Shown: positions 7,162 through 31,748 of the stretch, in pieces
Numbering within the stretch: position 1 is the first letter of the stretch
Layout: each line of letters starts with the position of its first letter
Source of the DNA: an uncultured Tateyamaria sp.
Lineage (GTDB): Bacteria; Pseudomonadota; Alphaproteobacteria; Rhodobacterales; Rhodobacteraceae
Length of the DNA: 64,000 nucleotides
Assembly (NCBI RefSeq): GCF_947503705.1
Contig: NZ_CANNES010000009.1
Span: forward strand, 62,001-126,000
Direction: 5' to 3'
The notes under the pieces: model-generated
Databases searched by the model: none
What the model was told of the DNA's origin: nothing
The model's input: only the letters and a program-made list of their open reading frames with translations
Position numbers and translations under genes: made by a program

Positions 7162-7177
7162 GTAACCAGTTAGTTAA
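7162..7177. promoter_or_regulatory. 16-bp dyad operator, site 1
   Basis: GTAACCAGTTAGTTAA is a near-palindrome matching the consensus GTAACyAnnTrGTTAC with one mismatch at the last base. It sits between the CoA-transferase start (7128) and a plausible reverse-strand -10 (CATAGT, 7181-7186), so a bound repressor would cover the transcription start. Confidence 0.75.
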
Positions 7178-7180
7178 TTG

Positions 7181-7209
7181 ACTATGCCAAGCCCTGTCAT
7201 TTGGATCAA
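7181..7209 (-). promoter_or_regulatory. putative promoter of the CoA-transferase operon
   Basis: On the reverse strand TTGATC (7209-7204), a 17-bp spacer and CATAGT (7186-7181) fit a sigma-70-type promoter. Operator site 1 begins 3 bp downstream of the -10. Confidence 0.5.
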
Positions 7210-7262
7210 GAGCGGATTTCATCAATAAAATCAGGGTTCGCCGCAGAAAGTCTTTCCTTTAA

Positions 7263-7278
7263 GTAACTATTTGGTTAC
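7263..7278. promoter_or_regulatory. 16-bp dyad operator, site 2
   Basis: GTAACTATTTGGTTAC fits the six-site consensus with both half-sites intact. It lies 29 nt upstream of the aldo/keto reductase start at 7307 and its centre is 101 bp from the centre of site 1. A weak -10 (TTTAAG, 7258-7263) overlaps its first base. Confidence 0.8.
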
Positions 7279-7306
7279 CAAAGAGGGAGACTCAGGGAGG
7301 CATGAC

Positions 7307-8125
7307 ATGAACATTTATTTCCAGAAAACACATCAACGCGCCTTTGGCACATTTCCTCTGACCGGTGATGTCGCACGCGACGCAATCCTGGCAGCTGCCG
7401 AGGTGGGCTATCGCGCCTTTGACACCGCTCAGATGTATGGAAACGAAGCGGAGACCGGCGACGCACTTGCCGCAACAGGTCTCGCGCGCGACGAGATGTG
7501 CATTACGACCAAAGTGCATCCCGACAATTTCAGCGATGACACGTTTTTGGCATCCGTTGAAAAAAGCCTGAAGGACCTCAAGCTCGATTATGTCGATGTC
7601 TTGCTGCTGCACTGGCCACCCATTGACGGCGATGTACGTCCTTCGCTTGAGCTGTTGCAGAAATCGCATGAAAAAGGGCTGACGCGGAACATCGGCGTTT
7701 CGAATTATACCATTGCCATGATGCAGACGGCTGTGAAAACCGTGGATGCGCCCATCGTGACCAACCAGGTCGAATTTCACCCGCTGCTCAATCAGGACAC
7801 GTTGCTGGCAGGTGCGAATGCGGTGGGCATTCCATTGTCGTCATATTCATCCGTCGCGCGGGGCGAGGTTTTCAAACACCCGGAATTCGGCCAAATCGGC
7901 GAAGCTTATGGCAAGTCAGCGGCCCAGGTGGTCCTGCGCTGGATTTTGCAAAAAGGGGTAAGCATCAACACAATGTCGACCAAACCTGCCAACATCCGGG
8001 CCAACTTTGAAATCATGGACTTCACGTTGAGCCACGTAGATATGGCGCGGATCGAAAAGCTGACCCAGACCGGTTATCGCATCGTCGGTTCGGATTTGGT
8101 GCCTTGGGCACCTGAATGGGACTGA
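7307..8125 (+). CDS. aldo/keto reductase (2,5-diketo-gluconate reductase-like)
   Basis: 272 residues from the ATG at 7307, which has AGGGAGG 7 nt upstream. The catalytic tetrad is visible: Asp39 and Tyr44 in FDTAQMYGNE, Lys69 in ITTKVHP and His102 in LLLHWPP. The NADPH-binding end has SAAQVVLRWILQKGVS. The protein is slightly shorter than most family members because the N-terminal strand before AFGTFPL is reduced. It probably reduces or oxidises a sugar or keto-sugar carbonyl. It is a single-gene unit with its own operator and ends at a strong hairpin shared with the convergent GMC gene. Confidence 0.92.
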   Translation: MNIYFQKTHQRAFGTFPLTGDVARDAILAAAEVGYRAFDTAQMYGNEAETGDALAATGLARDEMCITTKVHPDNFSDDTFLASVEKSLKDLKLDYVDVLLLHWPPIDGDVRPSLELLQKSHEKGLTRNIGVSNYTIAMMQTAVKTVDAPIVTNQVEFHPLLNQDTLLAGANAVGIPLSSYSSVARGEVFKHPEFGQIGEAYGKSAAQVVLRWILQKGVSINTMSTKPANIRANFEIMDFTLSHVDMARIEKLTQTGYRIVGSDLVPWAPEWD

Positions 8126-8133
8126 TGGCCTGA

Positions 8134-8169
8134 CAATCTGCCCGGCTCGGATGCGAGCCGGGCAGATTG
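8134..8169. terminator. bidirectional hairpin terminator
   Basis: A perfect 16-bp stem (CAATCTGCCCGGCTCG and its complement) with the 4-nt loop GATG lies between the stops of the convergent aldo/keto reductase and GMC oxidoreductase genes. There is no long T-run, so termination strength is inferred from the stem alone. Confidence 0.75.
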
Positions 8170-8176
8170 CAAAAGC

Positions 8177-9778
8177 TTACCTGTTGCCGCGCACCAGATC
8201 GCTCGCCTTTTCTGCAATCATGATGGTCGGCGCATTTGTGTTGGACCCGATCAGGCTTGGCATCACCGAGCTGTCACAGATGCGTATGCCGTCCAACCCA
8301 TGTACCCGAAGGTTCGGATCAACGACGGCCATCTCATCTGTTCCCATTTTGCAGGTACAGGTCGGGTGGTAAGACGTCCGCCCGTATTGGCGCGCAAATG
8401 CTTCCAAATCGGCTTGGGTTTTCACCGTATCATCCGGGAAACGGATGGCTCGCAGGTGTTTCTGAAGCGCCGGTTGAGAGAAAATCTCGCGGCTGATCTT
8501 GATGCCCTCGACGCTGGTCTTCAGATCATCCGGCTCCGCAAGGAAGTTGGGGTCGACCACCGGCATATCAGCGGGATCATTTGAACGCAGGCGCACCGTT
8601 CCTCGGCTCTTGGGGCGCACGGTGTAGGAGTTGAGCGTGATGCCCGAGGCGCCGGGCCTGACGCCGGGCACGCCTGCTTCTGCCCCTGCGCCCGCCAAAA
8701 AATGGAATTGCAGGTCGGGCAAACCTGACACGTCACCTGAATGCCAGAATGCGCCGCCTTCCACTACATTCGAGGTGATTGGCCCCGTGCGGAACAGCGC
8801 ATATTGCAGCCCGGCCCAGGCCGCCCAATGCGGTTTGTTGTACTTGTCGAGGCTGAGGTGACCGGTCAGTTCCCCGACGATGTCGATCCCGAAATGATCG
8901 TTGAGATTCTCGCCGACGCCGGGCAGATCGTGCACCACGTTGATGCCATGCTCTGCCAGATGGGCGGCGGGGCCGATGCCGGAAAGCATCATGATCTTGG
9001 GCGTACCGATCGCACCAGACGTCACGATGACTTCGCTGTTGACAACCGCGCGTCGCTGTTCCTTGCCGTTGAAATATTCCACGCCTGTCGCGCGATTGCC
9101 TTGAAACGTGATCCTCTTGACCATGCAGCCTGTCTCGACCGTCAGATTTTTGCGTTTGAGCGCGGGTTTGAGATAGCCCACCGCCGCCGAGCAACGGCGG
9201 GCGTTCTTTGTCGTTGTCTGATAGACTCCGCAACCCGACTGGCGTTTGCCGTTGAAATCATGCGCATAAGGAATACCCACCTGCTGGCAGGACTGCACAA
9301 ATGCCAGTGTCATCGGCTGAGGTGCCGGCAGGTCAGAAACGCCCAAAGGCCCATCCGTTCCGTGCCATTCATCGGCGATACGGTTGTTGCCTTCGGATTT
9401 CAGAAAATACTGCTGGATGTCTTTGAACGCCCAGCCTTTGCATCCTTCGTCATTGGCCCAACGATCATAGTCTTCGGGCGCGCCCCGGGTGAAGACTTCG
9501 GCATTGATGGAAGATCCGCCTCCGATCACACGCGCCTGCGCATACGGGATTTCGCGGTTGTTTGCATGTCTTTGCGGTGCGGTCTTGAACCCCCACGTAT
9601 GCGGCCCGGTTGTCATTTTGGCAAAGCCGACAGGCATATGGATGAGCGGATGCCAGTCTTTGCCCCCAGCCTCCAGCAACAATATCCGTGCGCTTCTGTC
9701 CTCGCTCAACCGGTTGGCCATCACGCAGCCTGCGGATCCCCCCCCGACAATGACGTAATCATAGCCCGTTTCTTTCAT
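8177..9778 (-). CDS. GMC family FAD-dependent oxidoreductase (choline dehydrogenase-like)
   Basis: 533 residues from the ATG at 9778. The N-terminal [18 protein letters not shown] is the FAD-binding dinucleotide fold, [18 protein letters not shown] is the first GMC signature, and TSGAIGTPKIMMLSGIGP the second. The C-terminal SYHPTCTCKMG and [14 protein letters not shown] segments carry the catalytic His and the His/Asn partner position. Such enzymes oxidise primary alcohols, often feeding an aldehyde dehydrogenase. The gene starts 1 nt after the stop of an aldehyde dehydrogenase, so the two should form an alcohol-to-acid oxidation pair. A paralogue lies at 34681-36315. Confidence 0.93.
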   Translation of the reverse strand: MKETGYDYVIVGGGSAGCVMANRLSEDRSARILLLEAGGKDWHPLIHMPVGFAKMTTGPHTWGFKTAPQRHANNREIPYAQARVIGGGSSINAEVFTRGAPEDYDRWANDEGCKGWAFKDIQQYFLKSEGNNRIADEWHGTDGPLGVSDLPAPQPMTLAFVQSCQQVGIPYAHDFNGKRQSGCGVYQTTTKNARRCSAAVGYLKPALKRKNLTVETGCMVKRITFQGNRATGVEYFNGKEQRRAVVNSEVIVTSGAIGTPKIMMLSGIGPAAHLAEHGINVVHDLPGVGENLNDHFGIDIVGELTGHLSLDKYNKPHWAAWAGLQYALFRTGPITSNVVEGGAFWHSGDVSGLPDLQFHFLAGAGAEAGVPGVRPGASGITLNSYTVRPKSRGTVRLRSNDPADMPVVDPNFLAEPDDLKTSVEGIKISREIFSQPALQKHLRAIRFPDDTVKTQADLEAFARQYGRTSYHPTCTCKMGTDEMAVVDPNLRVHGLDGIRICDSSVMPSLIGSNTNAPTIMIAEKASDLVRGNR

Positions 9779-9779
9779 G

Positions 9780-11282
9780 TCATTTGATCCAGTGGTCGCG
9801 TTTGCCGATCTCGATAAAAACAGACTTGATCTGTGTGTATTCCTCGACCCCGTAGATGCCCGCCTCGCGCCCCCAGCCGGATTGTTTGAACCCGCCGATG
9901 GGCAACTCGGGCCCACCTGCCAGCGTTGTGTTGACCCAGAACCGACCCGCCTGCACTTGCCGTGATACCGTCAAGGCAGTGTCGATGTTCTTGGACCACA
10001 CGCTGGCGGCAAGGCCGTATTCGGTGTCATTGGCCATGCTGATCGCCTCTTCCATCGTGTCGAACGGCAAAATGGTGAGGACCGGGCCAAAGATTTCCTC
10101 TCGCGCGATGGCCATGTTCGGCGTGACATCAGTAAAAACGGCCGGGGCGATGTATTGCCCTTTGCCCAGATCGGGTTGTGCGCCACCAGAGATCAGGGTG
10201 GCGCCCTCGGCTTGCCCCTTTTCGATATAGCCAAGAATGGTCTCGTTCTGCGCGTCGGTTGTGATGGCCCCGATTTGTGTGCTTTCGTCCAGCGGATCGC
10301 CAATCTTGGCCTTCGCCAGTTTCTCGGCAACCATGCGCCCAAAGTCCTCGGCCACGGACCGCTCGACAATCAAACGCGAGCCTGAGACACAGCATTGGCC
10401 CGTGTTGAAAGCGATGCCAAAGGCGACACCATCGGCGGCGTCCTCAAGGTCGGCATCGGCAAAGACGATCTGGGGGTTTTTGCCGCCCAGCTCCAATCCC
10501 AGCTTTTTGAAATTCGTTCGTCCTGAGGCTTCGACCACCGCACGGCCCACGGCAGTCGATCCTGTAAAGGACAGCATATCGACGTCCATGTGTTCGAGCA
10601 GGCGTTGACCAACTGTCCGCCCTGATCCGGTCACGACGTTGAACACACCGGCAGGCAGACCTGCCTCTGTCAGAATTTCAGCCAGGATCAAAGTGGTTGC
10701 GGATGTGACTTCCGAAGGTTTGGCGACAATCGTATTGCCGCCTGCCAGAATATAGGGAACCCGCTCGCACAGAATGAGGAACGGGAAATTCCAGGGGGTA
10801 ATGAGGCCCACGACGCCGATTGGTTCGCGCGTCACAACGCCCAGCGCACCGTCGCCCGTGTTGTTAAAACTGTCGCCGTGAAGCGAACGCGCAAGGCCAG
10901 CCGCGTATTCGAACATTCCAACACACCCGCCGACTTCGGCCCGGGCCTGCGCAATGGGTTTTCCGTTTTCGAGGGTTTCCCAATAAGCGACTTCATCAAT
11001 GCGCGCGCGCAGCAGTTCGGCCGTACGCAACAGGATGGTCGCACGGTCCGCCCCTGTCAGGGCAGACCAACTACGATCATCAAAGGCCCGCCGCGCCGAG
11101 GCCACCGCAGCATCAAGGTCATCGTCCGTGCATTTGACCATTCGGGTAACCGGTACGCCGTGGCCAGGTGAATTGCGCACAAAGACCTCGCGTGAGCCTG
11201 CGGGCACGCTGGCTCCCTCCAGATAGAACCCAAAATCACGCGGCTCGGCTGGCGGTGTCAGGATGGTGCTGGACTGGTCCAT
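9780..11282 (-). CDS. NAD(P)-dependent aldehyde dehydrogenase
   Basis: 500 residues, the usual length. The family motifs are present: TPWNFPFLILCERVPYILAG (cofactor binding), FTGSTAVGRAV, LELGGKNP with the general-base Glu, and FNTGQCCVSGSR with the nucleophilic Cys. It resembles betaine-aldehyde and other broad aldehyde dehydrogenases; the substrate is not evident. It is the first gene of a two-gene operon with the GMC oxidoreductase. The perfect operator palindrome lies 43 nt upstream of the ATG at 11282. Confidence 0.94.
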   Translation of the reverse strand: MDQSSTILTPPAEPRDFGFYLEGASVPAGSREVFVRNSPGHGVPVTRMVKCTDDDLDAAVASARRAFDDRSWSALTGADRATILLRTAELLRARIDEVAYWETLENGKPIAQARAEVGGCVGMFEYAAGLARSLHGDSFNNTGDGALGVVTREPIGVVGLITPWNFPFLILCERVPYILAGGNTIVAKPSEVTSATTLILAEILTEAGLPAGVFNVVTGSGRTVGQRLLEHMDVDMLSFTGSTAVGRAVVEASGRTNFKKLGLELGGKNPQIVFADADLEDAADGVAFGIAFNTGQCCVSGSRLIVERSVAEDFGRMVAEKLAKAKIGDPLDESTQIGAITTDAQNETILGYIEKGQAEGATLISGGAQPDLGKGQYIAPAVFTDVTPNMAIAREEIFGPVLTILPFDTMEEAISMANDTEYGLAASVWSKNIDTALTVSRQVQAGRFWVNTTLAGGPELPIGGFKQSGWGREAGIYGVEEYTQIKSVFIEIGKRDHWIK

Positions 11283-11324
11283 GGCGTGATTCCTTTGAGC
11301 TGGATTGGTTTACCCTCGCCTTAA

Positions 11325-11340
11325 GTAACCATATGGTTAC
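11325..11340. promoter_or_regulatory. 16-bp dyad operator, site 3 (perfect palindrome)
   Basis: GTAACCATATGGTTAC is identical to its own reverse complement and is the best copy of the repeated motif. It overlaps the presumed -10 of the aldehyde dehydrogenase operon. Confidence 0.85.
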
Positions 11341-11365
11341 ATGCAGATCAAGTCTTTCGCATCAA
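11337..11365 (-). promoter_or_regulatory. putative promoter of the aldehyde dehydrogenase operon
   Basis: On the reverse strand TTGATG (11365-11360), a 17-bp spacer and ATGTAA (11342-11337) form a plausible promoter. The last four bases of the -10 lie inside operator site 3. Confidence 0.45.
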
Positions 11366-11408
11366 GGAAAACACGCCATTTCTGACTAAATGCAACGCGT
11401 GGCGTTCC

Positions 11409-12430
11409 TCAGGCCATCACGATCTGGGTTTTCAGATCATCGGGCCGTGAATCATAGCTGTCGAAGGCGTCTTGAATGCGTTCCAGCGGGAATTCAGCGC
11501 CAACAAACGGACCCGTATGGATGCGCCCATGGCTCAGAAGCGTCAATGCGTCATGCATGTCCTCACCTACACCCGCGACCGACCCCTTTACCGAGTTTTC
11601 CTGCAAAACCGTCGTCAGGATGTCGAGGGGCAAGGCAGTATCCGGGCCCGTCAAACCAAACGCGGCAAGGTGTCCACCTCTGCGAATCAGTCCCAGCGCC
11701 ACTTGATAAAGCGCGGCATTGCCAACGCTTTCGATGACCAGATCGGCACCACGCCCATCGGTCGCCTCGTGCACAGCAGCCGCAAGCTGTGTCGGATCGC
11801 TGACACCGACATCTGCACCACAATCCAGCGCCATCTGCACCCGGTCCGCGCTGAGATCAGTCACGATGATGGGGGCCACGCCAATGGTGCGCAGGAGTTG
11901 CACATGCAGATTTCCGATGGGCCCTGCTCCGATCACCAGCGCCGATTGCCCGAATGTGACGCCCGATTTCCGCGCAGCACGCACCACACATGAAAGTGGT
12001 TCGGTCAGGGCCAGAATGTCATCCGGAACATGCGCAGGCGCCGGTATCGCAAGGCGGGCAGGCACCGAAACAAATTCAGCAAAGGCGCCATCCATCGTAA
12101 TCCCGATTTGCTGCATGTCGGGGCAATTGAGGACTTCGTCGCGGCGACACCAATAGCATCGGGTACAGCCGATATTCATATCCACGACAACGGGCTGACC
12201 CTCGTGCAACCCGGCAACGCCTTCTCCTATCACAGCAATGTGCCCGGTCAACTCATGGCCCGGGATCATCGGCAAGGCGTCGGCGGCATAGTTGCCGTGG
12301 AAAATGTGCAAATCAGTTCCGCATATTCCGGTGCGCGAAATCCGGATGAGCACCTCATGCGCGGCAGGTTTCGGCACGGGGACATCGCGCAATTCAAACT
12401 GCCGGGCTTGACCAAAACAGCGGCGCGCAT
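11409..12430 (-). CDS. zinc-dependent alcohol dehydrogenase (threonine/sorbitol dehydrogenase-like), 5' frameshift
   Basis: The body (11409-12392) encodes 327 residues of a medium-chain zinc alcohol dehydrogenase. It has SRTGICGTDLHIFHGNY with the catalytic Cys, GHELTG, a structural-zinc cluster (CTRCYWCRRDEVLNC) and the NAD-binding ALVIGAGPIGNLHVQL. The natural start appears to be the ATG at 12430, 5 nt after the permease stop, which reads MRAAVLVKPG. That frame then departs from the body, which is one base out of register. One extra base near 12406, turning GCCGGG into GCCCGGG on the plus strand, would restore MRAAVLVKPGQFELRDVPVP. Without it only a poor TTG start at 12392 is available. It is the last gene of the sugar importer operon and may oxidise the imported polyol or sugar. 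Confidence 0.82.
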
Positions 12431-12435
12431 GGTCT

Positions 12436-13380
12436 TCACTTTACCACTCCGCGCAGTTTGGAGCGATCAATCGTCAGTGCAATCGCTGCAATGAGGACGA
12501 TCCCGAAAACCATCTGTTGCTGTGTTGCGTCCACCTCAAGGTAAACCATCGCAGCTCGGATCACCATGACGATCAGTGTCCCGATGGCGGTGTTGACCAC
12601 GCCACCCACACCCCCTGTGAGCGGCGTGCCCCCGACCAAAACCGCAACAATAGCCAGCAGCAAAAAGCCGTTTGCAAGGTTCGCATCGCCCCCGGACAGT
12701 TTGACAGAGAACATCAGCCCGGCAATCGCCGCGAACACGCCAGAGATGGCAAAGGCGATGATCTTGACCCGGTCAACGTTAAGACCCGAAGCAACAGCCG
12801 CAAGCTCCCCCGCGCCAACGGCTTTGAGCGCGCGACCAAACGTCGTGCGGGCCTGCAGGAACCAGGCGATGGTCAGAAGAACGCCCGCGATCATCAGTTC
12901 ATTCGGGATGCCTGCGGTAGACCCGAACATCCATCCAAAGCTATCATTGCGCATGGTCGCATCCATGGCCAACGCCCGCTGTCCGGAAAGCCATTTGGCC
13001 ATGGACAGCGCCACAAAGCCCATCGCGAGAGTGGAGACAAAGGACGGAACGAAAAGCCGCGTCGTCACATAGCCGGAGACCGCGCCAAAGGCTGCGCCAA
13101 TGACGATGGCGATCAAGGCCACACCGACGCCAAAATTGGCCAGGTAAACCGTCGCCACGACGGTGACGACATTCGCCAGCTGCTGCACCGATAGGTCAAT
13201 GCCACCGATATAGATTACAAAGGTCATGCCCATCGCCATGATGAACAACGGCACAATATCAGCCACAAGCAGGATCAGGCTGCTCGGGTCGAAAAAGGAC
13301 GGATTGATCAGCCCCACGATCAGCACCAGCACGACCAGCGTAATCCAGGGAAAGTGCGGTTTGAGAGATTCGAGTTTCAT
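12436..13380 (-). CDS. RbsC-type sugar ABC transporter permease
   Basis: 314 residues, very hydrophobic, with about eight to ten membrane segments. The segment GELAAVASGLNVDRVKIIAFAISG contains the cytoplasmic coupling loop typical of the BPD_transp_2 (ribose/xylose/autoinducer-2) permease family. Together with the second permease and the double ABC ATPase it forms the channel of a carbohydrate importer. The stop lies just before the next gene's likely ATG. Confidence 0.92.
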   Translation of the reverse strand: MKLESLKPHFPWITLVVLVLIVGLINPSFFDPSSLILLVADIVPLFIMAMGMTFVIYIGGIDLSVQQLANVVTVVATVYLANFGVGVALIAIVIGAAFGAVSGYVTTRLFVPSFVSTLAMGFVALSMAKWLSGQRALAMDATMRNDSFGWMFGSTAGIPNELMIAGVLLTIAWFLQARTTFGRALKAVGAGELAAVASGLNVDRVKIIAFAISGVFAAIAGLMFSVKLSGGDANLANGFLLLAIVAVLVGGTPLTGGVGGVVNTAIGTLIVMVIRAAMVYLEVDATQQQMVFGIVLIAAIALTIDRSKLRGVVK

Positions 13381-13389
13381 AATCCGTCC

Positions 13390-14895
13390 TCAGATCATGT
13401 GATGCACGAGGTCGAAGAGCGTTGGCTTGCTGCCAGGCATTCCTTCAAACCTTTGCTGAAATTGACCGTCCTTGAGGACGATGATGGAGTGAGACAACCC
13501 AATGGCCTCTTCGAGAGTGTCCGCCACAAGGATGATACCAACCCCATCCGCAGACATCGCGCGCACCATCTCGTAGACGTCTTCCTTGGCCCCGATATCG
13601 AGCCCGCGCGTGGGATGATCGAGCAGGATGATGTCAGAGCCACCAGACCGCCACTTTGCAAGAACAACCTTTTGCTGGTTGCCCCCGGACAGCCCGGCGC
13701 AATCCTTGAATTCGCTTGGGGTTTTGATGCCAAGCTTGGCGATCCAGTCGCGCGCCAGTGCTTTCTCTTCGCCGATACGCAACACACCGTTCGAGGCGTA
13801 TTTGTCCATCTGGCTGAGCGTCATGTTTTCGTAAACGTTCATGCCGTTCACGATACCTTCGATCTTGCGTTCTCGCGGGACATAGCCAATGCCGTTGGCC
13901 ACCCCGTTTTGCGCGGTAAATCTGGTGACTTGTCGGCCCTTGATCGTAACCGTGCCCGATGTCGGCGCGTCCATTCCAAACACGGTGCGCAAGATCGCCT
14001 CGCGCCCCGAGCCTTCTGTGCCCACAAGGCACAGCACCTCGCCCGGATGCAAATCGAATGAGATATCTTCGAACCCACCTGCGCGGCTCACGTTGTTGAA
14101 TGACACCAATGGGTCGGTGCGCTCGTAATCGAGCTGCTTTTGCTCGCGGTAGTATTCCTTGTCGATATCGCGCCCGACCATTTTGTGCTGGATCGTTTCC
14201 ACTTGCGCCTCGCGTTGCGCAACGACGTCAACAACTTCACCGTCTTTCATCACATAGATCCGGTCGCTGAGTTCCAGCACCTCATCCATGCGGTGGCTGA
14301 CAAAGATAAACGATGCGCGCGAGGTCAGATCCCGGACCAACTGGAAGAGCAATTCGACCTCTTCGCGCGCCAAAACTGAAGTCGGCTCGTCCAGCAGGAT
14401 AACGAGGTCACCATCCACGCGTTCCTCAAGTGTCAGAACCTTGGCAAGTTCCACCAGCTGGCGCTGGGCAAAGGACAGTTTCGCCGTGATCATGGATGGG
14501 TCAATGTCGAGCTTGACCTTGGCCAGCTGCGCGCGCGCAGCGGCGGTCATTTCCTTCCAGTTGATCACGCCCCATTTCACAAACTGCTGCTCGAACCCCA
14601 GAAAAATATTCTCGGCAACTGTCAGGTTGGTGATCAGGGATTGTTCCTGGAACACCATGCCGATACCGTAATCCATTGCCTGCCGCGGATTGTGGAACCG
14701 AACGGCCTTGCCATCGACCGCAATCGTGCCGCCGTCAGGCTGGTAAGCGCCGTAGATGACTTTCATCAGGGTGGACTTGCCCGCCCCGTTTTCGCCGACA
14801 AGGCCCACGATCTCGCCGCGCCCGATCTTGAAATCAATCGCCTTGAGCGCGTGTACCCCGGGAAAGTGTTTGTCGACCTGCTGTAATTCGTACAT
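13390..14895 (-). CDS. RbsA-type sugar ABC transporter ATP-binding protein (two ABC domains)
   Basis: 501 residues with two tandem ABC modules, the hallmark of the carbohydrate uptake transporter-2 family. The first module has Walker A GENGAGKST, the signature-like LSFAQRQLVELAK and Walker B ILLDEPTS. The second has a degenerate P-loop (GTEGSGREAIL) with LSGGNQQKVVLAKW and IILLDHPTRGLD. It energises the importer formed by the two flanking permeases. Confidence 0.95.
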   Translation of the reverse strand: MYELQQVDKHFPGVHALKAIDFKIGRGEIVGLVGENGAGKSTLMKVIYGAYQPDGGTIAVDGKAVRFHNPRQAMDYGIGMVFQEQSLITNLTVAENIFLGFEQQFVKWGVINWKEMTAAARAQLAKVKLDIDPSMITAKLSFAQRQLVELAKVLTLEERVDGDLVILLDEPTSVLAREEVELLFQLVRDLTSRASFIFVSHRMDEVLELSDRIYVMKDGEVVDVVAQREAQVETIQHKMVGRDIDKEYYREQKQLDYERTDPLVSFNNVSRAGGFEDISFDLHPGEVLCLVGTEGSGREAILRTVFGMDAPTSGTVTIKGRQVTRFTAQNGVANGIGYVPRERKIEGIVNGMNVYENMTLSQMDKYASNGVLRIGEEKALARDWIAKLGIKTPSEFKDCAGLSGGNQQKVVLAKWRSGGSDIILLDHPTRGLDIGAKEDVYEMVRAMSADGVGIILVADTLEEAIGLSHSIIVLKDGQFQQRFEGMPGSKPTLFDLVHHMI

Positions 14896-14904
14896 GCCAG
14901 CCCC

Positions 14905-15948
14905 CTATTTCACAAAGCTGACGGCACGCCGGTCCGTGGACAGAACCACGGCGGCAATGACCAACAAGCCCAGGGTGCCGTCCTGCACCCAGCCGGGCAA
15001 ACCGATCACGACCATGCCATTATTGATCACGTTCACAATCAGAACCCCGATCAGCGTGTTCCAGACCCCGCCAATACCGCCCCAGAGTGCCGTGCCCCCA
15101 ACAACAACGGCCGTGATGGAGACGAACATAAATCCGTTGCCCGTGGCTGTTTCTGCAATTCCGATCCGTCCGACAGCCAGCAAGGCGCCCATGGCAAAGA
15201 AGACCCCCGCCAGGGTAAAGCCCATGATGCGCACCCGGTTCACGTTCAGGCCGCTGGCCTTGGCAAGTTCCTCGCCTCCGCCCACAGCATAGAAATTCCG
15301 CCCCAATGTGGTGCGCGATTGAATGAACCACGCGACCAGCAGACCAAAGAGCGCCACGTAGCACATGATCGGGAAGTTGAACCAACGCACGGTCAGGAGC
15401 GAACGGAACGCTTCGTCCTCGACACGGATGCGATCACCCCCGGTAAGCAGCAGCGCGAGCCCTGTGCCCACAAACCCCATCGCCAGTGAGGCCATGAAGG
15501 ACGGGATTTTGAGTTTGACGTGTACCAGACCGTTGATGAACCCCATGGCCGCACCGACGATCAGTGCGCCCGGAATGGCGAGGATGGCCCAAGAACCCAT
15601 CGTTCCGCCCATGCCCAAAAACAGAAACGCAAACAGAACGGCGCAGACCGAAACGGTGCCTTCCATCGACAGGTCAATGGAGCCCATGAGAATGATGAAC
15701 GTCACCCCGATCGCGACCATCAAGGCTGGTGATGCCGAGATCGCAATGCGGGCAAAATTTCTGATCGACAGGAACCGGCTGTCGACAAGGTATGTGTGGT
15801 CCTTGGCCGCTCGGAAATCTTCGAGCCATTCAAAGAACGGGAAAAGAAGCAAAAGGACACCTAGCACGAGCAAGGGCGCCCACTTTACCAGCGTTTCGCG
15901 GTTCAGTCGGTTGTGTGTGTCCGGAAGAACGGATGGTGTCGCAGTCAT
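14905..15948 (-). CDS. RbsC-type sugar ABC transporter permease
   Basis: 347 residues from the ATG at 15948 (MTATPSVLPD), with GGAG 10 nt upstream; an in-frame upstream reading would add an unlikely 18-residue extension. There are eight to ten membrane segments, and GGEELAKASGLNVNRVRIMGFT is the coupling loop seen also in the second permease. Having two different permeases means the channel is probably a heterodimer. Confidence 0.92.
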   Translation of the reverse strand: MTATPSVLPDTHNRLNRETLVKWAPLLVLGVLLLLFPFFEWLEDFRAAKDHTYLVDSRFLSIRNFARIAISASPALMVAIGVTFIILMGSIDLSMEGTVSVCAVLFAFLFLGMGGTMGSWAILAIPGALIVGAAMGFINGLVHVKLKIPSFMASLAMGFVGTGLALLLTGGDRIRVEDEAFRSLLTVRWFNFPIMCYVALFGLLVAWFIQSRTTLGRNFYAVGGGEELAKASGLNVNRVRIMGFTLAGVFFAMGALLAVGRIGIAETATGNGFMFVSITAVVVGGTALWGGIGGVWNTLIGVLIVNVINNGMVVIGLPGWVQDGTLGLLVIAAVVLSTDRRAVSFVK

Positions 15949-16083: not shown

Positions 16084-16090
16084 GACAGGA

Positions 16091-17200
16091 TTACTTGTAG
16101 ACAATCGGTCCGTTCGACGGGCCCCAGAAGTCCTTCCAGTCATAGGACGGAACGTCATCGAGATAGCTCGCCTTGAACGCCTTGGCGTCTTCCGGGGTCA
16201 CAAAAATCGTCGGGCCGTTGAACTCGCGGTGCTCGTTGGGCTCTTCGGACGGTTTGAAGTGGCCGGTCGCCGCGTAATAGGCCAATGCCGCCGTGATCCC
16301 GCCGCCCCAATGGGGATTTGTGAAGACCGTGGCGAGGATTTTGCCTTCGGCTACCAAACCCACCGCCTGTGGGTTGCCGTCATAGGACACAATTGGAATA
16401 TCCATGCCCTCGGCCCGCAAGGCTTCCAGAACACCGTAGGCAATCGTATCGTTGGCGCAGTGCACACCCGAAATTTCGTCACCGTAGCGGGTGATAAAGC
16501 CGGACATCACCTCGTTGGCCTTTTGGGTGTCCCAATCCGCGGGCTGGGCATCCAGCAACTCAACGTCAGGATAGTCCTTGAGGGCGTTTTTCAGACCGTT
16601 CAGTCGTTCGATGGCCGGGTTGTTCGACGCAATACCGCCTAGGTGAACAACACCGCCCTTGCCGCCAATGGCTTCGAGAAGGATGCGCGCGGTCTGCTCC
16701 GCCGGGCCTTCATCCGACCATGACATATGGCTCACGTAGTTGTCGCCAAAATCCCATGGATGCAGGTCATCCGTCTTGTTCCAGAGCGTGGACACATAGG
16801 CCCCCGCTTCGACGCAACTTTCGACAACGGGGCGCGCGTTGGGGGCGTCATTGGTGTCGATGGCAAGGGCCAGTTCGCCATTGGTCTTTGCCAGCAATGC
16901 TTTCACATCGGCGAGCGACTTTTCCGATGAACCCTCGTTGATCAAGTGGGTCAGAGCCGACTTGTCCTTGCCCAGGCTTTCGATAAAGGCCTCTCCGCCC
17001 GAAACGATCTCGTTCCAGTATGGGTTGGTACGGTTCCGGTAGGACCAAGCAACCGTCGGATCGCTATAGGTGGCCGCCATGGCGGGTGACGGACCGAACA
17101 TGCGCATCGCGGCTGTCGCCGCGACGCCATAGGCGGATGCGAGCAGGAAATTCCGACGCGAAACGGTTTCCTGCTCGATGAATTTCTTGATGAATGACAT
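16091..17200 (-). CDS. sugar ABC transporter substrate-binding protein (RbsB-like, Tat-exported)
   Basis: 369 residues. The N-terminus has a twin-arginine motif (SRRNFLLAS, residues 14-22), a hydrophobic stretch and AMA before the mature protein, which points to Tat export. The mature part has the two-lobe Peripla_BP_4 fold (WSYRNRTNPYWNEIVSGGEA at its start). The later stretches HCANDTIAYGVLEAL and IVSYDGNPQAVGLVAEGK are typical of sugar-binding proteins. It leads the operon for the double-ABC importer and is divergent from the TetR gene, with an operator between them. The ligand is unknown. Confidence 0.93.
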   Translation of the reverse strand: MSFIKKFIEQETVSRRNFLLASAYGVAATAAMRMFGPSPAMAATYSDPTVAWSYRNRTNPYWNEIVSGGEAFIESLGKDKSALTHLINEGSSEKSLADVKALLAKTNGELALAIDTNDAPNARPVVESCVEAGAYVSTLWNKTDDLHPWDFGDNYVSHMSWSDEGPAEQTARILLEAIGGKGGVVHLGGIASNNPAIERLNGLKNALKDYPDVELLDAQPADWDTQKANEVMSGFITRYGDEISGVHCANDTIAYGVLEALRAEGMDIPIVSYDGNPQAVGLVAEGKILATVFTNPHWGGGITAALAYYAATGHFKPSEEPNEHREFNGPTIFVTPEDAKAFKASYLDDVPSYDWKDFWGPSNGPIVYK

Positions 17201-17316
17201 ATGGGGCTCCTCCCTTGATTGCCCAGTTTCCGACCGTGAACCGGCCGATAATTCGTCGTTTTGACCTGTCTTACGCAGGCAGTGTTCGAAAGATTCTGCG
17301 TGATTCGAACATGTAA

Positions 17317-17332
17317 CGCACTAGTTAGTTAC
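17317..17332. promoter_or_regulatory. 16-bp dyad operator, site 4 (degenerate left half)
   Basis: CGCACTAGTTAGTTAC has a perfect right half-site but three mismatches in the left half; a further GTAAC lies 4 bp to the left. It is between the divergent TetR and binding-protein genes, 65 bp before the TetR start, as expected for an autoregulatory site. Confidence 0.6.
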
Positions 17333-17397: not shown

Positions 17398-18054
17398 ATG
17401 ACGGCAGAAAATATTGCGCCCGAACGCAAAACGCGGAAGCGCGACGCGGATGCAACCAAGGGTCGTATCCTTGCCGCAGCCAAGGCGGAATTCGCGAAAC
17501 TGGGTCTTGCCGGGGCACGCGTCGATGACATCGCGGAACGCTCCAGCGCCAATAAGCGCATGATCTATCACTATTTTGGCGGTAAGGAGGCGCTGTTTTG
17601 CGCGGTCCTTGAAGAGGCGTATCTGGACATTCGCGAGTCTGAACGCGCGCTGAACCTCGAAGACCTGCCACCCATTGAGGCCATGCAAACCCTGGTGCGT
17701 TTCACGTGGGAGTATTACCTGGCCAATCCCGAATTCATCACGCTGGTCAATAGCGCCAACCTGCACAAAGGCCGCCATCTTGAAAGCGCCGACCGCCTCA
17801 AGACCCGCCAGCGCCAATTCGTTGACATGGTGCAGCGCATCCTGGATCGCGGCGTTACCACCGGTGACTTTCGCAAAGGCATCGACCCGATTCAGCTGAA
17901 CATCACGATTGCTGCCATCGGCTATTACTATCTGACGAACCGACATACCGGGGGCATCCTGTTTCAACGCGACTTTCTGGAGCCGGATGCGCTAAAGACC
18001 CGTTTGGACTTTAACATCGACACCATCATGCGGCTCATATCGGCAAAGGATTGA
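17398..18054 (+). CDS. TetR family transcriptional regulator
   Basis: 218 residues from the ATG at 17398, with GAGG just upstream; an earlier in-frame ATG at 17335 would add an unlikely 21 residues. The N-terminal DNA-binding domain reads ATKGRILAAAKAEFAKLG, then DDIAERSSANKRMIYHYFGGKEAL, the canonical TetR helix-turn-helix. The C-terminal ligand domain is helical and rich in aromatic residues, resembling YcdC/RutR-like members. RutR binds TTGACCAnnTGGTCAA, which has the same 16-bp layout as the dyads found here. It is the best candidate for the protein that binds the six operators. The effector is probably a sugar derivative or acyl-CoA of the pathway. Confidence 0.93.
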   Translation: MTAENIAPERKTRKRDADATKGRILAAAKAEFAKLGLAGARVDDIAERSSANKRMIYHYFGGKEALFCAVLEEAYLDIRESERALNLEDLPPIEAMQTLVRFTWEYYLANPEFITLVNSANLHKGRHLESADRLKTRQRQFVDMVQRILDRGVTTGDFRKGIDPIQLNITIAAIGYYYLTNRHTGGILFQRDFLEPDALKTRLDFNIDTIMRLISAKD

Positions 18055-18200
18055 ACGGTGCGAAACCGGGCAATGCCAGAGGCCTTCTCATATTTCAGAA
18101 TAGTCCAATATATGAGATAACTTGATCCATCCCCGCTGTCCGAGCGGCCTTGCACCTTTCATGTTGGGTGCGACCGCTTTCGCAACTTTGGGAGGAAACG

Positions 18201-19475: not shown

Positions 19476-19484
19476 AGACCCCGC

Positions 19485-20828
19485 ATGAAATCCGCGCGTA
19501 GTTCAAACATCGAACGGATCACGTCGATCTTGGCTGGATTCGACGCCCGGAACCGTCCGCGTTCAACGCGGGCGGTTCTAAGGGATGCGGGGCTGTCGCG
19601 CGCCACCGGGTTTGGGTTGATCCGGGCGCTGGTGCAGGCAGGCTGGCTGGAGCGTGTGGATCATGGCGCGCTCTGCCTGGGCCCGCGCGCCGCCGAACTC
19701 GCTTATGCTCCGATGGAACCACCCTTACCGCGCAGCGCGGCCGCCCTTACCGCCCTCAAAGGCAAGCCTGAGGAGCCGCAGATCCCTGTTTCAGTCGCTG
19801 ATCCGGAATGGGACCCAGCCCTCGTCCGCAGCATCGAAACAGATCGGTTTCGCAAATCCCCACCCTTTGTGATCGGGTTTTCCAACGCGTCGACAAGCAA
19901 CCCGTGGCGTCAGGCTTTGGTCACGAGCTTGGCCTATGGACAAGGCGTGGCACGTGGCCAGATCGAACGGATCGAGGTGCGCGATGCTCATGATGATGCC
20001 GCCCGGCAGTTGCGCGATGTGGATGCCCTCGTCGACAAGGGCATCGACCTGTTGTTGATCTCGACCACCTCCGTCACGGACAGCGCGCTGAGCAACCGAT
20101 TGGCGGCACTGGCCGAAAACGGGTTGCCGATTGTCGCCGTTGATCGCCGCCCCCAGGACCGCACCTCGCTGGTCAGCTTTGTGACGGCCTCTGATCAGCG
20201 CATTGGCTGGATGAGCGCCCTTTGGCTATCTGAGCACCTCAAGGGGCGCGGTCGCATCTGGATGTTGTCGGGATTGAAGGGCGCAAGCCCGGCCATTCGC
20301 CGACAACAGGCCGCCTTGGCGGTTTTCAATGCCTTTCCGAATATCAGCGTGGAAAACGTCAGCTATACCGACTGGACGGCTGCCGGTGGCAGCACCGCCA
20401 TCAAGGACTTGCTGGCTGCCGAATCCCCGGCTCCTGATGGCGTGTGGTGCGACAGTGGCCTGCAAGGGGTCGGATCGGTGCATCAATTTGCGGCCCAAGG
20501 GCTGCCGATACCGGCCCATACCGGTGGCGATGTCAACGAAATGTACAAAACCTGCCTGTCGCACAAAGTGCCGATGGTGGGTTTGGACTATCCCGCCTCC
20601 ATGGGTGCGCGGGCGGTCGCCGTCGCCCTTGATATCCTGAGGGGAACCCCCGTCCCGCAGCGTGTGGAAGTCCCTGTTCAGGTGGTGATGTCGCGCGGGT
20701 CTGAAACGCCGTCCGTGCGGGCCGATATCTGGGCCGAGTTGCACGTCGCCTGGAAACAGACGGGCGAAACGATCCTGTCGCGAGGCGCTGCACCCGGTGC
20801 GGCCCGACAGTCGCAGGAACGTTCCTGA
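19485..20828 (+). CDS. chimeric regulator: IclR-like winged helix fused to a LacI-type sugar-binding domain
   Basis: 447 residues. Residues about 8-72 (IERITSILAGFDARN, STRAVLRDAGLSRATGFGLI, LVQAGWLERVDHGALCLGP) form an IclR/MarR-like winged helix. After a linker, residues about 126-420 form a Peripla_BP_4 domain: VIGFSNASTSNPWRQALVTS, DALVDKGIDLLLISTT, LPIVAVDRRPQ and GRIWMLSGLKGAS. There is no signal peptide, so it is cytoplasmic. This is the logic of a LacI regulator with a different DNA-binding module. Its sensor domain belongs to the same fold as the binding protein at 16091-17200. It probably senses the imported sugar or a derivative. The stop overlaps the next gene's ATG by one base. 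Confidence 0.82.
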   Translation: MKSARSSNIERITSILAGFDARNRPRSTRAVLRDAGLSRATGFGLIRALVQAGWLERVDHGALCLGPRAAELAYAPMEPPLPRSAAALTALKGKPEEPQIPVSVADPEWDPALVRSIETDRFRKSPPFVIGFSNASTSNPWRQALVTSLAYGQGVARGQIERIEVRDAHDDAARQLRDVDALVDKGIDLLLISTTSVTDSALSNRLAALAENGLPIVAVDRRPQDRTSLVSFVTASDQRIGWMSALWLSEHLKGRGRIWMLSGLKGASPAIRRQQAALAVFNAFPNISVENVSYTDWTAAGGSTAIKDLLAAESPAPDGVWCDSGLQGVGSVHQFAAQGLPIPAHTGGDVNEMYKTCLSHKVPMVGLDYPASMGARAVAVALDILRGTPVPQRVEVPVQVVMSRGSETPSVRADIWAELHVAWKQTGETILSRGAAPGAARQSQERS

Positions 20829-23386: not shown

Positions 23387-23397
23387 GGACACGCCTG

Positions 23398-24900
23398 ATG
23401 CACAACACAAATCTGATCGCCGGTGACTGGATCGGCAGCACATCAACATTCACGTCAGATCCCGCAAGCGGTCCTGGCGAAACCTTCGCCTGCGGGACAC
23501 CCGAACTGGTGGCGCAAGCCTGTTCGGCGGCAGAAGACGCATTTTGGACCTACGGCTATACATCCCGCGAAATGCGCGCCGGGTTTCTCGAGGCCATTGC
23601 GGATCAGATCGAAGCACGCGGTGACGCCCTGACAAAAGTTGGCACATCTGAGACCGGTCTGCCCGCAGCCCGTCTTGGGGGTGAACGTGGGCGCACGACA
23701 GGTCAATTGCGCCTCTTTGCACAACATATCCTTGACGGCGCTTATTTAGACCAGCGTCACGATGCGGCCCTACCAGATCGCACGCCCCTGCCCCGCCCCG
23801 ATCTGAAACTCGCCCAGCGCCCCATCGGCCCGGTCGCGGTGTTCTGCGCGTCAAACTTTCCGCTCGCCTTTTCAACTGCCGGTGGGGATACCGCCTCGGC
23901 GCTCGCGGCAGGCTGCCCCGTGGTGGTCAAAGGCCACCCGGCCCACCCTGGCACTGGCGCACTGGTGGCCGAAGCTGTGGATGCGGCGCGCCGCGGTCTG
24001 GATCTGCATCCAGGTGTCTTCAGCTTTGTGCACGACGGCGGCCTCGCCGTGGGGCAGGCCTTGGTGCAAGATCCATTCATCAAGGCCGTTGGTTTCACCG
24101 GCTCTTTGCGCGGTGGACGGGCGCTGTTTGATCTATGCGCTGCGCGGCCCGAGCCGATCCCCTTCTTTGGCGAACTTGGGTCCGTAAATCCGATGTTCCT
24201 GCTGCCGCACGCTCTGGCCGCCCGGGGGGCAGACATCGCCAAAGGCTGGGCCGTCTCACTGACGATGGGTGCGGGGCAGTTTTGCACTAACCCCGGTATT
24301 GCCGTGCTGCCTGTAGGCGATGCGGCGACGGCGTTTTGCACAAGCGCCGCGCAAGCGCTCAGGGACGTCAGCCCGCAAACCATGCTGACACCCGGCATTT
24401 GCGCCGCATTCCGACAAGGTCGCGACGCGATCGCATCCGTCAAAGGGGTCACCGCGCTGATCGAAATGCCAGCAGATGGACGGCAAGTCGCACCGCATCT
24501 GTACCAATTGGACGCTGACACGCTGGCTGCAAACCCTGCGTTGGCGCATGAGGTTTTTGGCCCACTGGGGTTGATCGTGACGGTCAATGACATCCAGCGC
24601 ATGACCCGCCTCGCACAGAGCCTTGTCGGCCAGTTGACGGCAACACTGCATTTGCACGATGAGGATCAGAAAGACGGCGATCCCTTGCTACGCGTGCTTG
24701 AGCGCAAGGCAGGCAGGGTGCTGGTCAACGGCTTTCCGACGGGGGTCGAAGTGGCGGAGGCGATGGTGCATGGAGGGCCATATCCCGCCTCGACAAACTT
24801 TGGCGCCACTAGCGTGGGGACACTTGCGATCAGGCGTTTCCTGCGCCCGGTCTGTTATCAGAACCTGCCCGAGGGCATGGCCGATTGGGCAACCGCCTAA
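23398..24900 (+). CDS. NADP-type aldehyde dehydrogenase, alpha-ketoglutarate semialdehyde dehydrogenase-like
   Basis: 500 residues from the ATG at 23398, with AAGGA upstream. It has the features of the 2,5-dioxovalerate dehydrogenase branch: the CASNFPLAFSTAGGDTASAL cofactor segment, VGFTGSLRGGRAL, FFGELGSVNP with the general-base Glu, and GQFCTNPG with the nucleophilic Cys. It would oxidise alpha-ketoglutarate semialdehyde to alpha-ketoglutarate, the last step of Weimberg-type sugar-acid degradation. Its stop codon overlaps the stop of the convergent MaoC gene by 3-4 bp, leaving no room for a terminator. Confidence 0.88.
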   Translation: MHNTNLIAGDWIGSTSTFTSDPASGPGETFACGTPELVAQACSAAEDAFWTYGYTSREMRAGFLEAIADQIEARGDALTKVGTSETGLPAARLGGERGRTTGQLRLFAQHILDGAYLDQRHDAALPDRTPLPRPDLKLAQRPIGPVAVFCASNFPLAFSTAGGDTASALAAGCPVVVKGHPAHPGTGALVAEAVDAARRGLDLHPGVFSFVHDGGLAVGQALVQDPFIKAVGFTGSLRGGRALFDLCAARPEPIPFFGELGSVNPMFLLPHALAARGADIAKGWAVSLTMGAGQFCTNPGIAVLPVGDAATAFCTSAAQALRDVSPQTMLTPGICAAFRQGRDAIASVKGVTALIEMPADGRQVAPHLYQLDADTLAANPALAHEVFGPLGLIVTVNDIQRMTRLAQSLVGQLTATLHLHDEDQKDGDPLLRVLERKAGRVLVNGFPTGVEVAEAMVHGGPYPASTNFGATSVGTLAIRRFLRPVCYQNLPEGMADWATA

Positions 24901-25352
24901 CGATAGGCAAGCAATCGGTTGGTCCCGCGCTGCACGATGACGCCATTCTGATTTGTCACCTCGAATTCGAGCGACAGAATGGCTTCGTTCGGATCGCGCG
25001 CCGGTGAGATATCCGCGATCTCATAGGTGACGTCTATCGTGTCCCCGGCAAGCACCGGCGCACGGAACGTCCATGTCCATCCCATGGATGCACGTGCTTT
25101 CATCTGCGCACCCGTCTGATTTTTCAGCCCGTCAATCAGGGAAAGCACCAGCAATCCATGCGCCACCCGCGCCTTGAAGCCATGTAAAAGTGCCGCTTCG
25201 TCGGACATGTGAATTTCAAACCTGTCCCCCGTCAGCGCGGCAAAATGATCAATCATCCCGGTCGTCACAGTGACCGCGCCGCACTTGACGCGGTCACTGC
25301 AGCACAGGGCATCTGCCCCATACGCTCCGGGAGGGAGAACGTTGCGTGCCAA
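24897..25352 (-). CDS. MaoC-like (R)-specific enoyl-CoA hydratase/dehydratase
   Basis: About 151 residues. The hot-dog-fold motif FAALTGDRFEIHMSDE holds the catalytic Asp and His of MaoC hydratases, and VAHGLLVLSLIDGL is the typical following helix. It would hydrate an enoyl-CoA. The only start that keeps the whole domain is a TTG at 25352 with a poor ribosome-binding site, 6 nt after the stop of the upstream aldo/keto reductase, so translation may depend on coupling. A shorter GTG start cannot be ruled out. It shares the operator of that reductase. Confidence 0.85.
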   Translation of the reverse strand: MARNVLPPGAYGADALCCSDRVKCGAVTVTTGMIDHFAALTGDRFEIHMSDEAALLHGFKARVAHGLLVLSLIDGLKNQTGAQMKARASMGWTWTFRAPVLAGDTIDVTYEIADISPARDPNEAILSLEFEVTNQNGVIVQRGTNRLLAYR

Positions 25353-25358
25353 TGATCG

Positions 25359-26375
25359 TCAGACAGGCGTGGGTGCGTCGTCGCGCAACAGCCCGGTGAA
25401 CTTCAGATCAGACCAGAATTCAGTTGGAATTGGATGGCTGAACCAGTCGAGGTTTTGGGCCAACTGCTCCACCGTGCGGGTACCTGCGGCAAAGGACGGC
25501 ACCGCCGGATGCGCGACCACGAACTGAAGTGCTGCGGCAGGCAATGGTACGTCATAGTCTGCGCACACGGCCTCGATCTTGCGCACTTTTTCCATGATGT
25601 CCGCCGGGGCCGGGGCGTAGTTGTATTTGGCCCCTTCCTTTGCACCCGTCGCTAGAATGCCGGAGTTGAACCCGCCTCCCACAACCACCGCTGCGCCGCG
25701 CTCTTCGCACAGGGGCAGGAATTCGTTCAGGGAATCCTGCTCCAGCAGAGTGTATCGCCCGGCCAGAAGGAAGCAATCCACATCCCGTTGCTTGAGAGCC
25801 TCATGGCAGACTTCCCATTCGTTGACCCCGACGCCGATGGCCTTGACCATGCCCTGGTCCCGCAGCGACTCCAAAGCCTTCCAACAGCCATCCATCGCTT
25901 GCTTGAAAACCTCCGGTTGCTCATCACCACGCGTGAAAACGTCGATGTCATGGATAAAGCAGATGTCCATCCGCTCCAATGCGAGGCGTTGAAGGCTGTC
26001 CTCGAAGGCGCGCATCGTGCCGTCATAAGTGTAGTCAAATTCCATCTGGAAAGGGGCGGCATTGGTCCAGGGGGCAAAGTCGATATCCGCCCGTTTTGCA
26101 GGCACAAGCCTCCGCCCAACTTTAGAGGACAGTACGAAATCGTCGCGGTTTTTCCAACGCAACGATTGCCCCGTGCGCAGTTCCGCCAGCCCATGACCAT
26201 ACATTGGTGCGGTGTCAAAATAGCGTATTCCGGCGTCCCATGCGGTCTGTATCATCGCGTCGGATGTCTGTTCGTCGATCTCGCGAAAAATGTTGCCGAT
26301 GGGGGCGGTGCCGAATCCAAAGGCTGTGACCTCCAGGTCGACGCGACCAAATTTATTCTTTGTATCCGGGGTCAT
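25359..26375 (-). CDS. aldo/keto reductase (D-threo-aldose 1-dehydrogenase / pyridoxal dehydrogenase-like)
   Basis: 338 residues. The catalytic Asp and Tyr are in IRYFDTAPMYGHG, the Lys in LSSKVGR and the His in CFIHDID. The long form and the GFGTAPIGNIF start match the branch that holds D-threo-aldose (L-fucose) 1-dehydrogenase and pyridoxal 4-dehydrogenase, which oxidise an aldose to its lactone. That would suit the alpha/beta hydrolase and FAH enzymes nearby. The operator at 26391 lies 15 nt upstream of the ATG at 26375, and AGAGAGG is the ribosome-binding site. Confidence 0.92.
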   Translation of the reverse strand: MTPDTKNKFGRVDLEVTAFGFGTAPIGNIFREIDEQTSDAMIQTAWDAGIRYFDTAPMYGHGLAELRTGQSLRWKNRDDFVLSSKVGRRLVPAKRADIDFAPWTNAAPFQMEFDYTYDGTMRAFEDSLQRLALERMDICFIHDIDVFTRGDEQPEVFKQAMDGCWKALESLRDQGMVKAIGVGVNEWEVCHEALKQRDVDCFLLAGRYTLLEQDSLNEFLPLCEERGAAVVVGGGFNSGILATGAKEGAKYNYAPAPADIMEKVRKIEAVCADYDVPLPAAALQFVVAHPAVPSFAAGTRTVEQLAQNLDWFSHPIPTEFWSDLKFTGLLRDDAPTPV

Positions 26376-26390
26376 AGCTTACCTCTCTAA

Positions 26391-26406
26391 GTAACCATTT
26401 CGTTAC
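26391..26406. promoter_or_regulatory. 16-bp dyad operator, site 5
   Basis: GTAACCATTTCGTTAC matches the consensus with one substitution in the inner right half. It immediately precedes the ribosome-binding site of the aldo/keto reductase gene and shares one base with the presumed -10. Confidence 0.78.
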
Positions 26407-26434
26407 TTATTTACCAGAATCGATTGATGAGCAA
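26406..26434 (-). promoter_or_regulatory. putative promoter of the aldo/keto reductase-MaoC operon
   Basis: On the reverse strand TTGCTC (26434-26429), a 17-bp spacer and AATAAG (26411-26406). The operator starts at the last base of the -10, the same geometry as at 26486. Confidence 0.45.
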
Positions 26435-26457
26435 GTTGTTTTAGCTACGCAAAGCTG

Positions 26458-26486
26458 TTGACGATGTTTGAAGGAGAAGCATAAAG
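26458..26486 (+). promoter_or_regulatory. putative promoter of the acyl-CoA dehydrogenase operon
   Basis: TTGACG (26458-26463), a 17-bp spacer and ATAAAG (26481-26486) are a good sigma-70-type promoter. The operator at 26486 begins at the last base of the -10, so a bound repressor would cover the start site. Confidence 0.6.
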
Positions 26487-26501
26487 TAACTAAACGGTTA
26501 C
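26486..26501. promoter_or_regulatory. 16-bp dyad operator, site 6
   Basis: GTAACTAAACGGTTAC has both outer half-sites intact. It is 13 nt before the ATG of the acyl-CoA dehydrogenase and 95 bp centre to centre from site 5. Confidence 0.8.
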
Positions 26502-31740: not shown

Positions 31741-31748
31741 GCAAAACC

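Follow-up and report, generated by a model that had tools for sequence, protein, structure and literature searches.

Which protein reads the 16-bp dyad that recurs before the genes of a catabolic island in an uncultured Tateyamaria sp., and does this dyad join the genes into one regulon? The question arises from six copies of a GTAAC-N6-GTTAC-type sequence in the window, that is, the whole stretch of 64,000 nucleotides analysed here, and from a gene for a TetR-family regulator of 218 aa (17398..18054, plus strand) beside one of them. The original prediction had named this TetR as the reader of the sites, a choice supported by site spacing, by recurrence at equivalent promoters and by co-occurrence of sites and TetR orthologues across genomes. 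The dyads are very probably operators of the TetR encoded at 17398, through which it would repress the regulon.

Dyad copies in the window and the genome

A pattern scan matches all six reported places. With up to three mismatches, the consensus GTAACYANNTRGTTAC has eight matches in the window, whereas 100 dinucleotide shuffles give a mean of 1.41 and a maximum of 6, with 0/100 reaching eight. Both arms, GTAAC and GTTAC, are exact at 7263, 11325, 26391 and 26486; the perfect palindrome among the reported copies is that at 11325, and the other three are the further copies said to keep both arms. The copy at 7162 has one mismatch. The copy at 17317, CGCACTAGTTAGTTAC, retains an exact right arm and YANNTR core next to a degenerate left arm, amounting to three mismatches to the earlier consensus. 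Both imperfect copies, 7162 and 17317, are seen again at equivalent promoters of other species. In what follows, the 17317 copy is called operator B and the other five are called operator A.

A 20-bp position weight matrix (PWM) was built from 63 sites at other loci and used with a reporting level of 6 bits. It scores the five A sites at 27.7-33.4 bits and two registers of the 17317 site at 17.5 and 9.1 bits, with no further match of at least 6 bits in the window. The eighth match of the consensus, at 32590 with three mismatches, falls below 6 bits with this matrix and is not supported.

The genome scan suggested along with the original prediction, performed with the arm pattern, finds exact copies confined to the island. 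GTAACNNNNNNGTTAC occurs exactly four times in the 4.43-Mb genome, every copy lying in the island, and the number of exact-arm copies expected from base composition is about 2.4 per genome and 0.035 per 64 kb. When one mismatch is allowed, 36 forward places are found in the genome, six of them in the island, against 167 for a reversed control pattern. Three of the 30 one-mismatch places outside the island also fit the YRNNYR core by eye. One of these, GTAACCGTTCGGTTAT at L007:1501 (C1:542667 of the same genome), has one mismatch and a fitting core and lies a few bases beyond the end of a long open reading frame; this place, the only one inspected of the three, has no evident promoter position.

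Predicted operators beside TetR orthologues

By its domain scores and predicted fold, the protein encoded at 17398 is a member of the TetR family. The N-terminal TetR_N domain (PF00440, residues 24-69) scores 46.7 bits against a cut-off of 24, and the C-terminal ligand/dimer domain (PF17938) scores 137 bits against 26.2. The AlphaFold2 model has a mean predicted local distance difference test (pLDDT) value of 84.8 and is helical save for isolated single-residue bridge marks, and the top Foldseek matches of the model are TetR proteins. Among 26 aligned orthologues, drawn from a set of 81 sequences, the recognition segment N52-K53-R54-M55-x-Y57-H58-Y59-F60 does not vary, and it is kept to more than 98% when 80 sequences are compared, one from the window and the others from 79 of the 80 loci. 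Domain scores and co-occurrence together make this protein the candidate reader of the operators. Dyads are conserved across the orthologue loci, including the tetR promoter, and are predicted to be bound by a TetR dimer.

The 80 loci are the best 80 of 420 relatives, carry TetR orthologues of 63-81% identity, extend at most 10 kb on each side of tetR and total 1.457 Mb, with genes called by a home-made gene caller. When the spacing is varied between 0 and 15, spacing 6 yields 45 exact-arm copies, spacing 10 yields 19 and the 14 others yield one between them, whereas swapped arms yield two over all 16 spacings. The spacing-10 copies belong to the tetR promoter element, save one place in L085. 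The comparison of operators beside TetR orthologues, put forward as a check on the original prediction, thus singles out spacing 6 and finds the sites at equivalent genes. An exact A site is present in 37/80 loci and a B site at tetR in 71/80, with both in 32 and either form in 76/80. In the window and the loci together, 88% of the sequence was called coding, yet 46 of the 49 exact A sites fall between genes, and 40 of the 49 lie 2-50 bp before a called start. The start codons that follow are mainly those of the CoA-transferase, two aldo/keto reductases, the aldehyde dehydrogenase and the acyl-CoA dehydrogenase, and the genes beside A sites elsewhere are mostly those of the window, plus GMC2-type dehydrogenases. 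Exceptions are a site inside a called gene (L038) and sites by unnamed or weakly related genes (L039, L093, L095).

Operator A takes the following forms in the window, none with a strand assigned. GTAACCAGTTAGTTAA (7162..7177), the copy with one mismatch, lies before the CoA-transferase gene, and a like site precedes this gene in L018, L020, L021, L024, L026, L028, L033, L075, L076, L100, L101, L102, L104 and L106. GTAACTATTTGGTTAC (7263..7278), located by the pattern scan, lies 28 bp before the aldo/keto reductase gene AKRa. The perfect palindrome GTAACCATATGGTTAC (11325..11340) lies 42 bp before the unit of aldehyde dehydrogenase ALDH1 and GMC1 and recurs before ALDH1 in L016, L032, L034, L062, L066, L068 and L091; a megablast of its region gave no plasmid match. 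GTAACCATTTCGTTAC (26391..26406) stands 15 bp before a second aldo/keto reductase gene, AKRb, with counterparts in L016, L040, L087, L101, L102 and L106. GTAACTAAACGGTTAC (26486..26501) stands 13 bp before the acyl-CoA dehydrogenase (ACAD) gene, with counterparts in L016, L020, L024, L025, L026, L040, L076, L080 and L087. The copies at 7162 and 7263 are 101 bp apart and those at 26391 and 26486 are 95 bp apart, both pairs lying in divergent promoters, where they appear to supply one operator per promoter. The other seven A pairs, found with the strict pattern, are 85-136 bp apart, and the spacing is 99-102 bp in L018, L020, L021, L033 and L076.

Operator B (17317..17332, plus strand) is common to the tetR and ABC-transporter promoters and has the conserved half-degenerate form YGCACYRNNYRGTTACTT. 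An overlapping register at 17313 (GTAAC-N6-GTTAG) has fewer mismatches and was dropped in favour of 17317, the coordinate reported originally, because aligned orthologous promoters keep YGCACYRNNYRGTTACTT. In the window and in 71 of the 80 loci, a B site lies upstream of tetR at a distance of no more than 320 bp; the 16-bp B core has 74 plus-strand copies in the window and the loci together, 72 of them upstream of tetR. In 71 of the 74 plus-strand copies, B is followed after 17-18 bp by GTCAA, which reads TTGAC on the strand of the transporter, and B therefore occupies the place of the transporter -10 box. The 20-bp arrangement GTAAC-N10-GTTAC, with 19 copies in the 80 loci, was dropped as a separate spacing class because most other orthologous promoters replace the outer left GTAA (by TTAA, ATAA, CTAA and others) and keep GCAC and the core. 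The 17317 site is supported as a distinct, conserved, half-degenerate class of predicted operator, presumably weaker in affinity than A. A conserved asymmetric operator at its own promoter would fit autoregulation of tetR.

A second B-type operator occurs in S. meliloti 1021 pSymA (L096:14286), where it is inverted and lies some 1.6 kb beyond tetR. The stretch behind it has no close match to the window gene set beyond distant ATPase matches, and the site suggests a wider regulon on this replicon.

Co-occurrence was assessed in 149 genomes sampled from the family of the window, Rhodobacteraceae, with GTAACYRNNYRGTTAC as the A pattern, YGCACYRNNYRGTTACTT as the B pattern and at least 60% identity defining an orthologue. 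A full-length TetR orthologue is present in 12/149 genomes, and G139 and G102, whose copies sit next to the transporter gene and are truncated by the end of the contig, bring the number to 14. A-pattern matches occur in 13 genomes and B-pattern matches in 10. A or B is found in 14/14 orthologue genomes against 2/135 others (Fisher p 7e-18, a value that ignores phylogeny), and the A pattern, with or without B, in 12/14 against 1/135. G037, G094, G101 and G109, which hold only TetR relatives of 40-50% identity, have neither pattern. In G125, G126, G002 and G068 sites also lie on contigs apart from that of tetR, at CoA-transferase and SDR/ACAD sets, and the site of G029 (L103) lies in a contig stretch without any gene related to the window set.

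The catabolic genes also occur without the regulator. The CoA-transferase is present at 71% identity or more in 14/14 orthologue genomes. G064, G079, G109 and G146 carry the CoA-transferase (69-81%) and the DUF993 protein (68-76%) and lack the TetR orthologue; a profile search at E 1e-15 finds no TetR relative in three of them, and in G109 it finds a single distant one. Either pattern is present in 0/4 of these genomes against 14/14 with the orthologue (p 0.0003), and no site-like match was found in the equivalent promoters of G109 and G146.

Proposed mechanism and rival explanations

Binding, repression, autoregulation, an inducer and an order of affinities belong to a mechanism that we infer from these comparisons. 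A TetR dimer probably binds each 16-bp dyad, and the bound protein would be a steric block to RNA polymerase at as many as seven transcription units. Such a block is expected from the position of the operators, a short way upstream of start codons and covering or immediately following the likely -10 element; -35/-10 pairs can be picked out by eye, one of them, TTGACG-N16-CATAAA, immediately preceding the 26486 operator. A metabolite of an imported sugar- or polyol-like compound would release TetR, so that uptake and oxidation would be induced together. Divergent promoters would have one operator each, and the tetR/transporter promoter would have a single half-degenerate operator, probably of lower affinity.

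Several observations weigh against this reading. Within the stretch covered, 43/80 loci lack an exact A site, and four (L030, L035, L044, L052) have neither operator form. Among the family genomes, G082 (A site, L098:5004) and G076 (B site, L109:6125) carry sites without a TetR relative at E 1e-15. G079, without the TetR, still has an exact-arm copy, GTAACCTACGCGTTAC, before AKRa, its core off the pattern, and counting this copy changes the contrast to 1/4 against 14/14 (p 0.005). The four regulator-less genomes are drafts, 83-98% complete, and an absent tetR may therefore be an assembly gap. Because A and B agree in one half but not in the other, a common reader for the two classes can only be presumed. 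A promoter scan gives 6 matches against 7.0 expected from shuffles, and only the one at 26458-26487 touches an operator; as the scan shows no excess, the -35/-10 placements and -10 overlaps are by eye only.

The exact-arm copy of G079 scores 16.6 bits with the PWM, and the other G079 place and both G064 places are weak half-sites of 7.2-7.9 bits, all at CoA-transferase/AKRa promoters (L115:2934 and 3032; L116:2796 and 2896, in G079 and G064, respectively). These remnants are possibly decaying operators, and a diverged or unassembled regulator may also lie behind them.

If two regulators were at work, the TetR would be confined to B at the tetR promoter, and A would be bound by another regulator not linked to the region. 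The difference between A and B in one half-site would fit such a division, as would the 39/80 loci that have B at tetR without an exact A in the stretch covered, and the A site of G082 and the exact-arm copy of G079, both in genomes without the TetR. However, the A pattern tracks the TetR orthologue in the genome comparison, A and B agree in register, in the YRNNYR core and in the GTTAC half, and in L041, L059, L079 and L083 tetR itself is preceded by an A site. Two regulators are thus unlikely. A TetR acting as activator, or in both roles, is somewhat less probable still: the direction of control is drawn from sequence, but the placement of 40/49 exact A sites 2-50 bp before a called start fits steric repression, and the transporter-promoter B sits at the -10 place relative to the conserved TTGAC.

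Binding by another protein of the island is very improbable. The IclR-like protein (20828) and the protein with a helix-turn-helix (HTH) and a sugar-binding domain (19617) are both regulator-like and both encoded in the island, and an IclR-type regulator had been named as the alternative in the original prediction. That alternative is weakened by linkage, since, taken as best matches of at least 30% identity, the IclR-like gene occurs in 3/80 loci (L016, L055, L092) and the HTH/sugar-binding gene in 2/80 (L016, L092), against an exact A in 37/80, counts which cover at most 10 kb on each side of tetR and would therefore miss unlinked copies. The notion that the dyads are chance occurrences or a dispersed repeat without function draws on the shortness of the motif and on the imperfect copies at 7162 and 17317. 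It is contradicted by the shuffles, the spacing controls, the conservation at equivalent promoters and the co-occurrence, and is hardly credible. Repression by the TetR encoded at 17398 is the reading adopted below.

Known TetR regulons and the genes of the island

The proposed likeness to RutR stands for the fold, as RutR is the top Foldseek match, and for the core spacing; it does not extend to the identity of the protein, which is not RutR. Among solved structures, RutR of Escherichia coli is nearest in fold (Foldseek E 1.5e-8, template modelling (TM) score 0.67, 26% identity). The RutR box has the core CCANNTGG, as in the window dyads, and its outer arms are TTGAC where those here are GTAAC. 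Assignment of the 17398 protein as RutR was rejected on scores far below the equivalog cut-offs (TIGR03613, 55.1 bits against 368; PRK15008, 52.5 against 230) and on a differing recognition segment, NKRMIYHYF against SKTNLLYYF in E. coli RutR, with some positions in common. The genes linked to the 17398 TetR concern sugar-type transport and CoA-linked oxidation, whereas RutR concerns pyrimidine catabolism; no rut enzyme is named among the NCBIfam matches listed for the 20 neighbouring proteins, a scan not aimed at rut genes. The RutR dimer binds a palindrome of roughly 16 bp (PMC10891134). Among solved chains, the best sequence match is 3npi, DIP1788 of Corynebacterium diphtheriae (E 8e-22, 81 bits), with a TM score of 0.73 and 27% identity to the 17398 model, and it is listed as a TetR-family regulatory protein, with no operator or effector in that listing.

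Comparative genomics has delineated TetR regulons for FabR, FadP, LiuQ, PsrA and RutR (PMC5343134). In the available part of that source, these are likewise TetR proteins with several operators over metabolic units, described on the same style of evidence; none of the five groups concerns the window gene set there, a distinction made by genes, not motifs. A description of the present regulon was not found in the open-access literature (titles and abstract beginnings), nor in the available parts of PMC3973600, PMC5343134 and PMC10891134. The comparisons support a new TetR regulon well, with an ordinary mechanism. A wider proposal is put forward tentatively and falls a little short of being probable: an undescribed TetR regulon over Rhodobacterales, Hyphomicrobiales and related groups, S. 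meliloti pSymA included, would control a complete pathway, with two operator classes setting the order of induction. The classes would be symmetric at enzyme promoters and half-degenerate at the regulator/transporter promoter. The pathway would comprise sugar-type uptake, stepwise oxidation by Zn-dependent alcohol dehydrogenase, GMC, aldehyde dehydrogenase and aldo/keto reductase enzymes, CoA activation, and processing that involves ACAD, hydratases, the short-chain dehydrogenase/reductase (SDR), the DUF993 protein and the TIM-barrel protein.

By gene order, the six operators serve seven transcription units: CoA-transferase/hydratase, AKRa, ALDH1-GMC1, the ABC transporter, tetR, AKRb-MaoC and ACAD-SDR-DUF993-TIM. 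The predicted regulon of seven or more units holds as one regulon by comparative genomics, and the count of seven comes only from this gene order. Assignments of the island proteins follow family or domain matches. On the minus strand lie the enoyl-CoA hydratase (4805-5560), which comes after the fused CoA-transferase (5557..7152, probable start GTG at 7128 by eye), GMC1, a choline-dehydrogenase-like protein (8177-9778), and ALDH1 (9780-11282). The same strand carries a CUT2-type sugar ABC transporter, with its substrate-binding protein (16091-17200), permease (14905-15948), ATPase (13390-14895) and second permease (12436-13380), followed by the Zn alcohol dehydrogenase (11409-12311), and further on AKRb (25359-26375) with the MaoC-like hydratase (24897-25256). 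The plus strand encodes AKRa (7307..8125) and the set of ACAD, SDR, DUF993 protein and xylose-isomerase-like TIM barrel (26515..30433), downstream of which, still on this strand, lie another ABC transporter and a GMC gene (30490-36315). The DUF993 gene itself (28438-29589) has SDR and TIM-barrel neighbours in many loci too.

No substrate can be assigned to the pathway from the family matches of the island proteins. The presence of a CUT2 transporter together with oxidoreductases suggests a sugar- or polyol-like compound as the imported substrate, and CoA activation would be expected because a CoA-transferase occurs with an acyl-CoA dehydrogenase. The operator suggests which genes form one pathway, the DUF993 gene included, and no paper on DUF993 was found in the open-access literature. 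A TetR with a defined operator offers a handle for an inducer search by biosensor, which could lead to the identity of the transporter substrate, and the transporter-enzyme set occurs in many marine and soil alphaproteobacteria.

Within the island, the protein encoded at 19485-20828 (plus strand) combines a weak N-terminal HTH match (AbiEi_4 / HTH_IclR) with a fused Peripla_BP_4 sugar-binding domain, and looks like a second sugar-sensing regulator.

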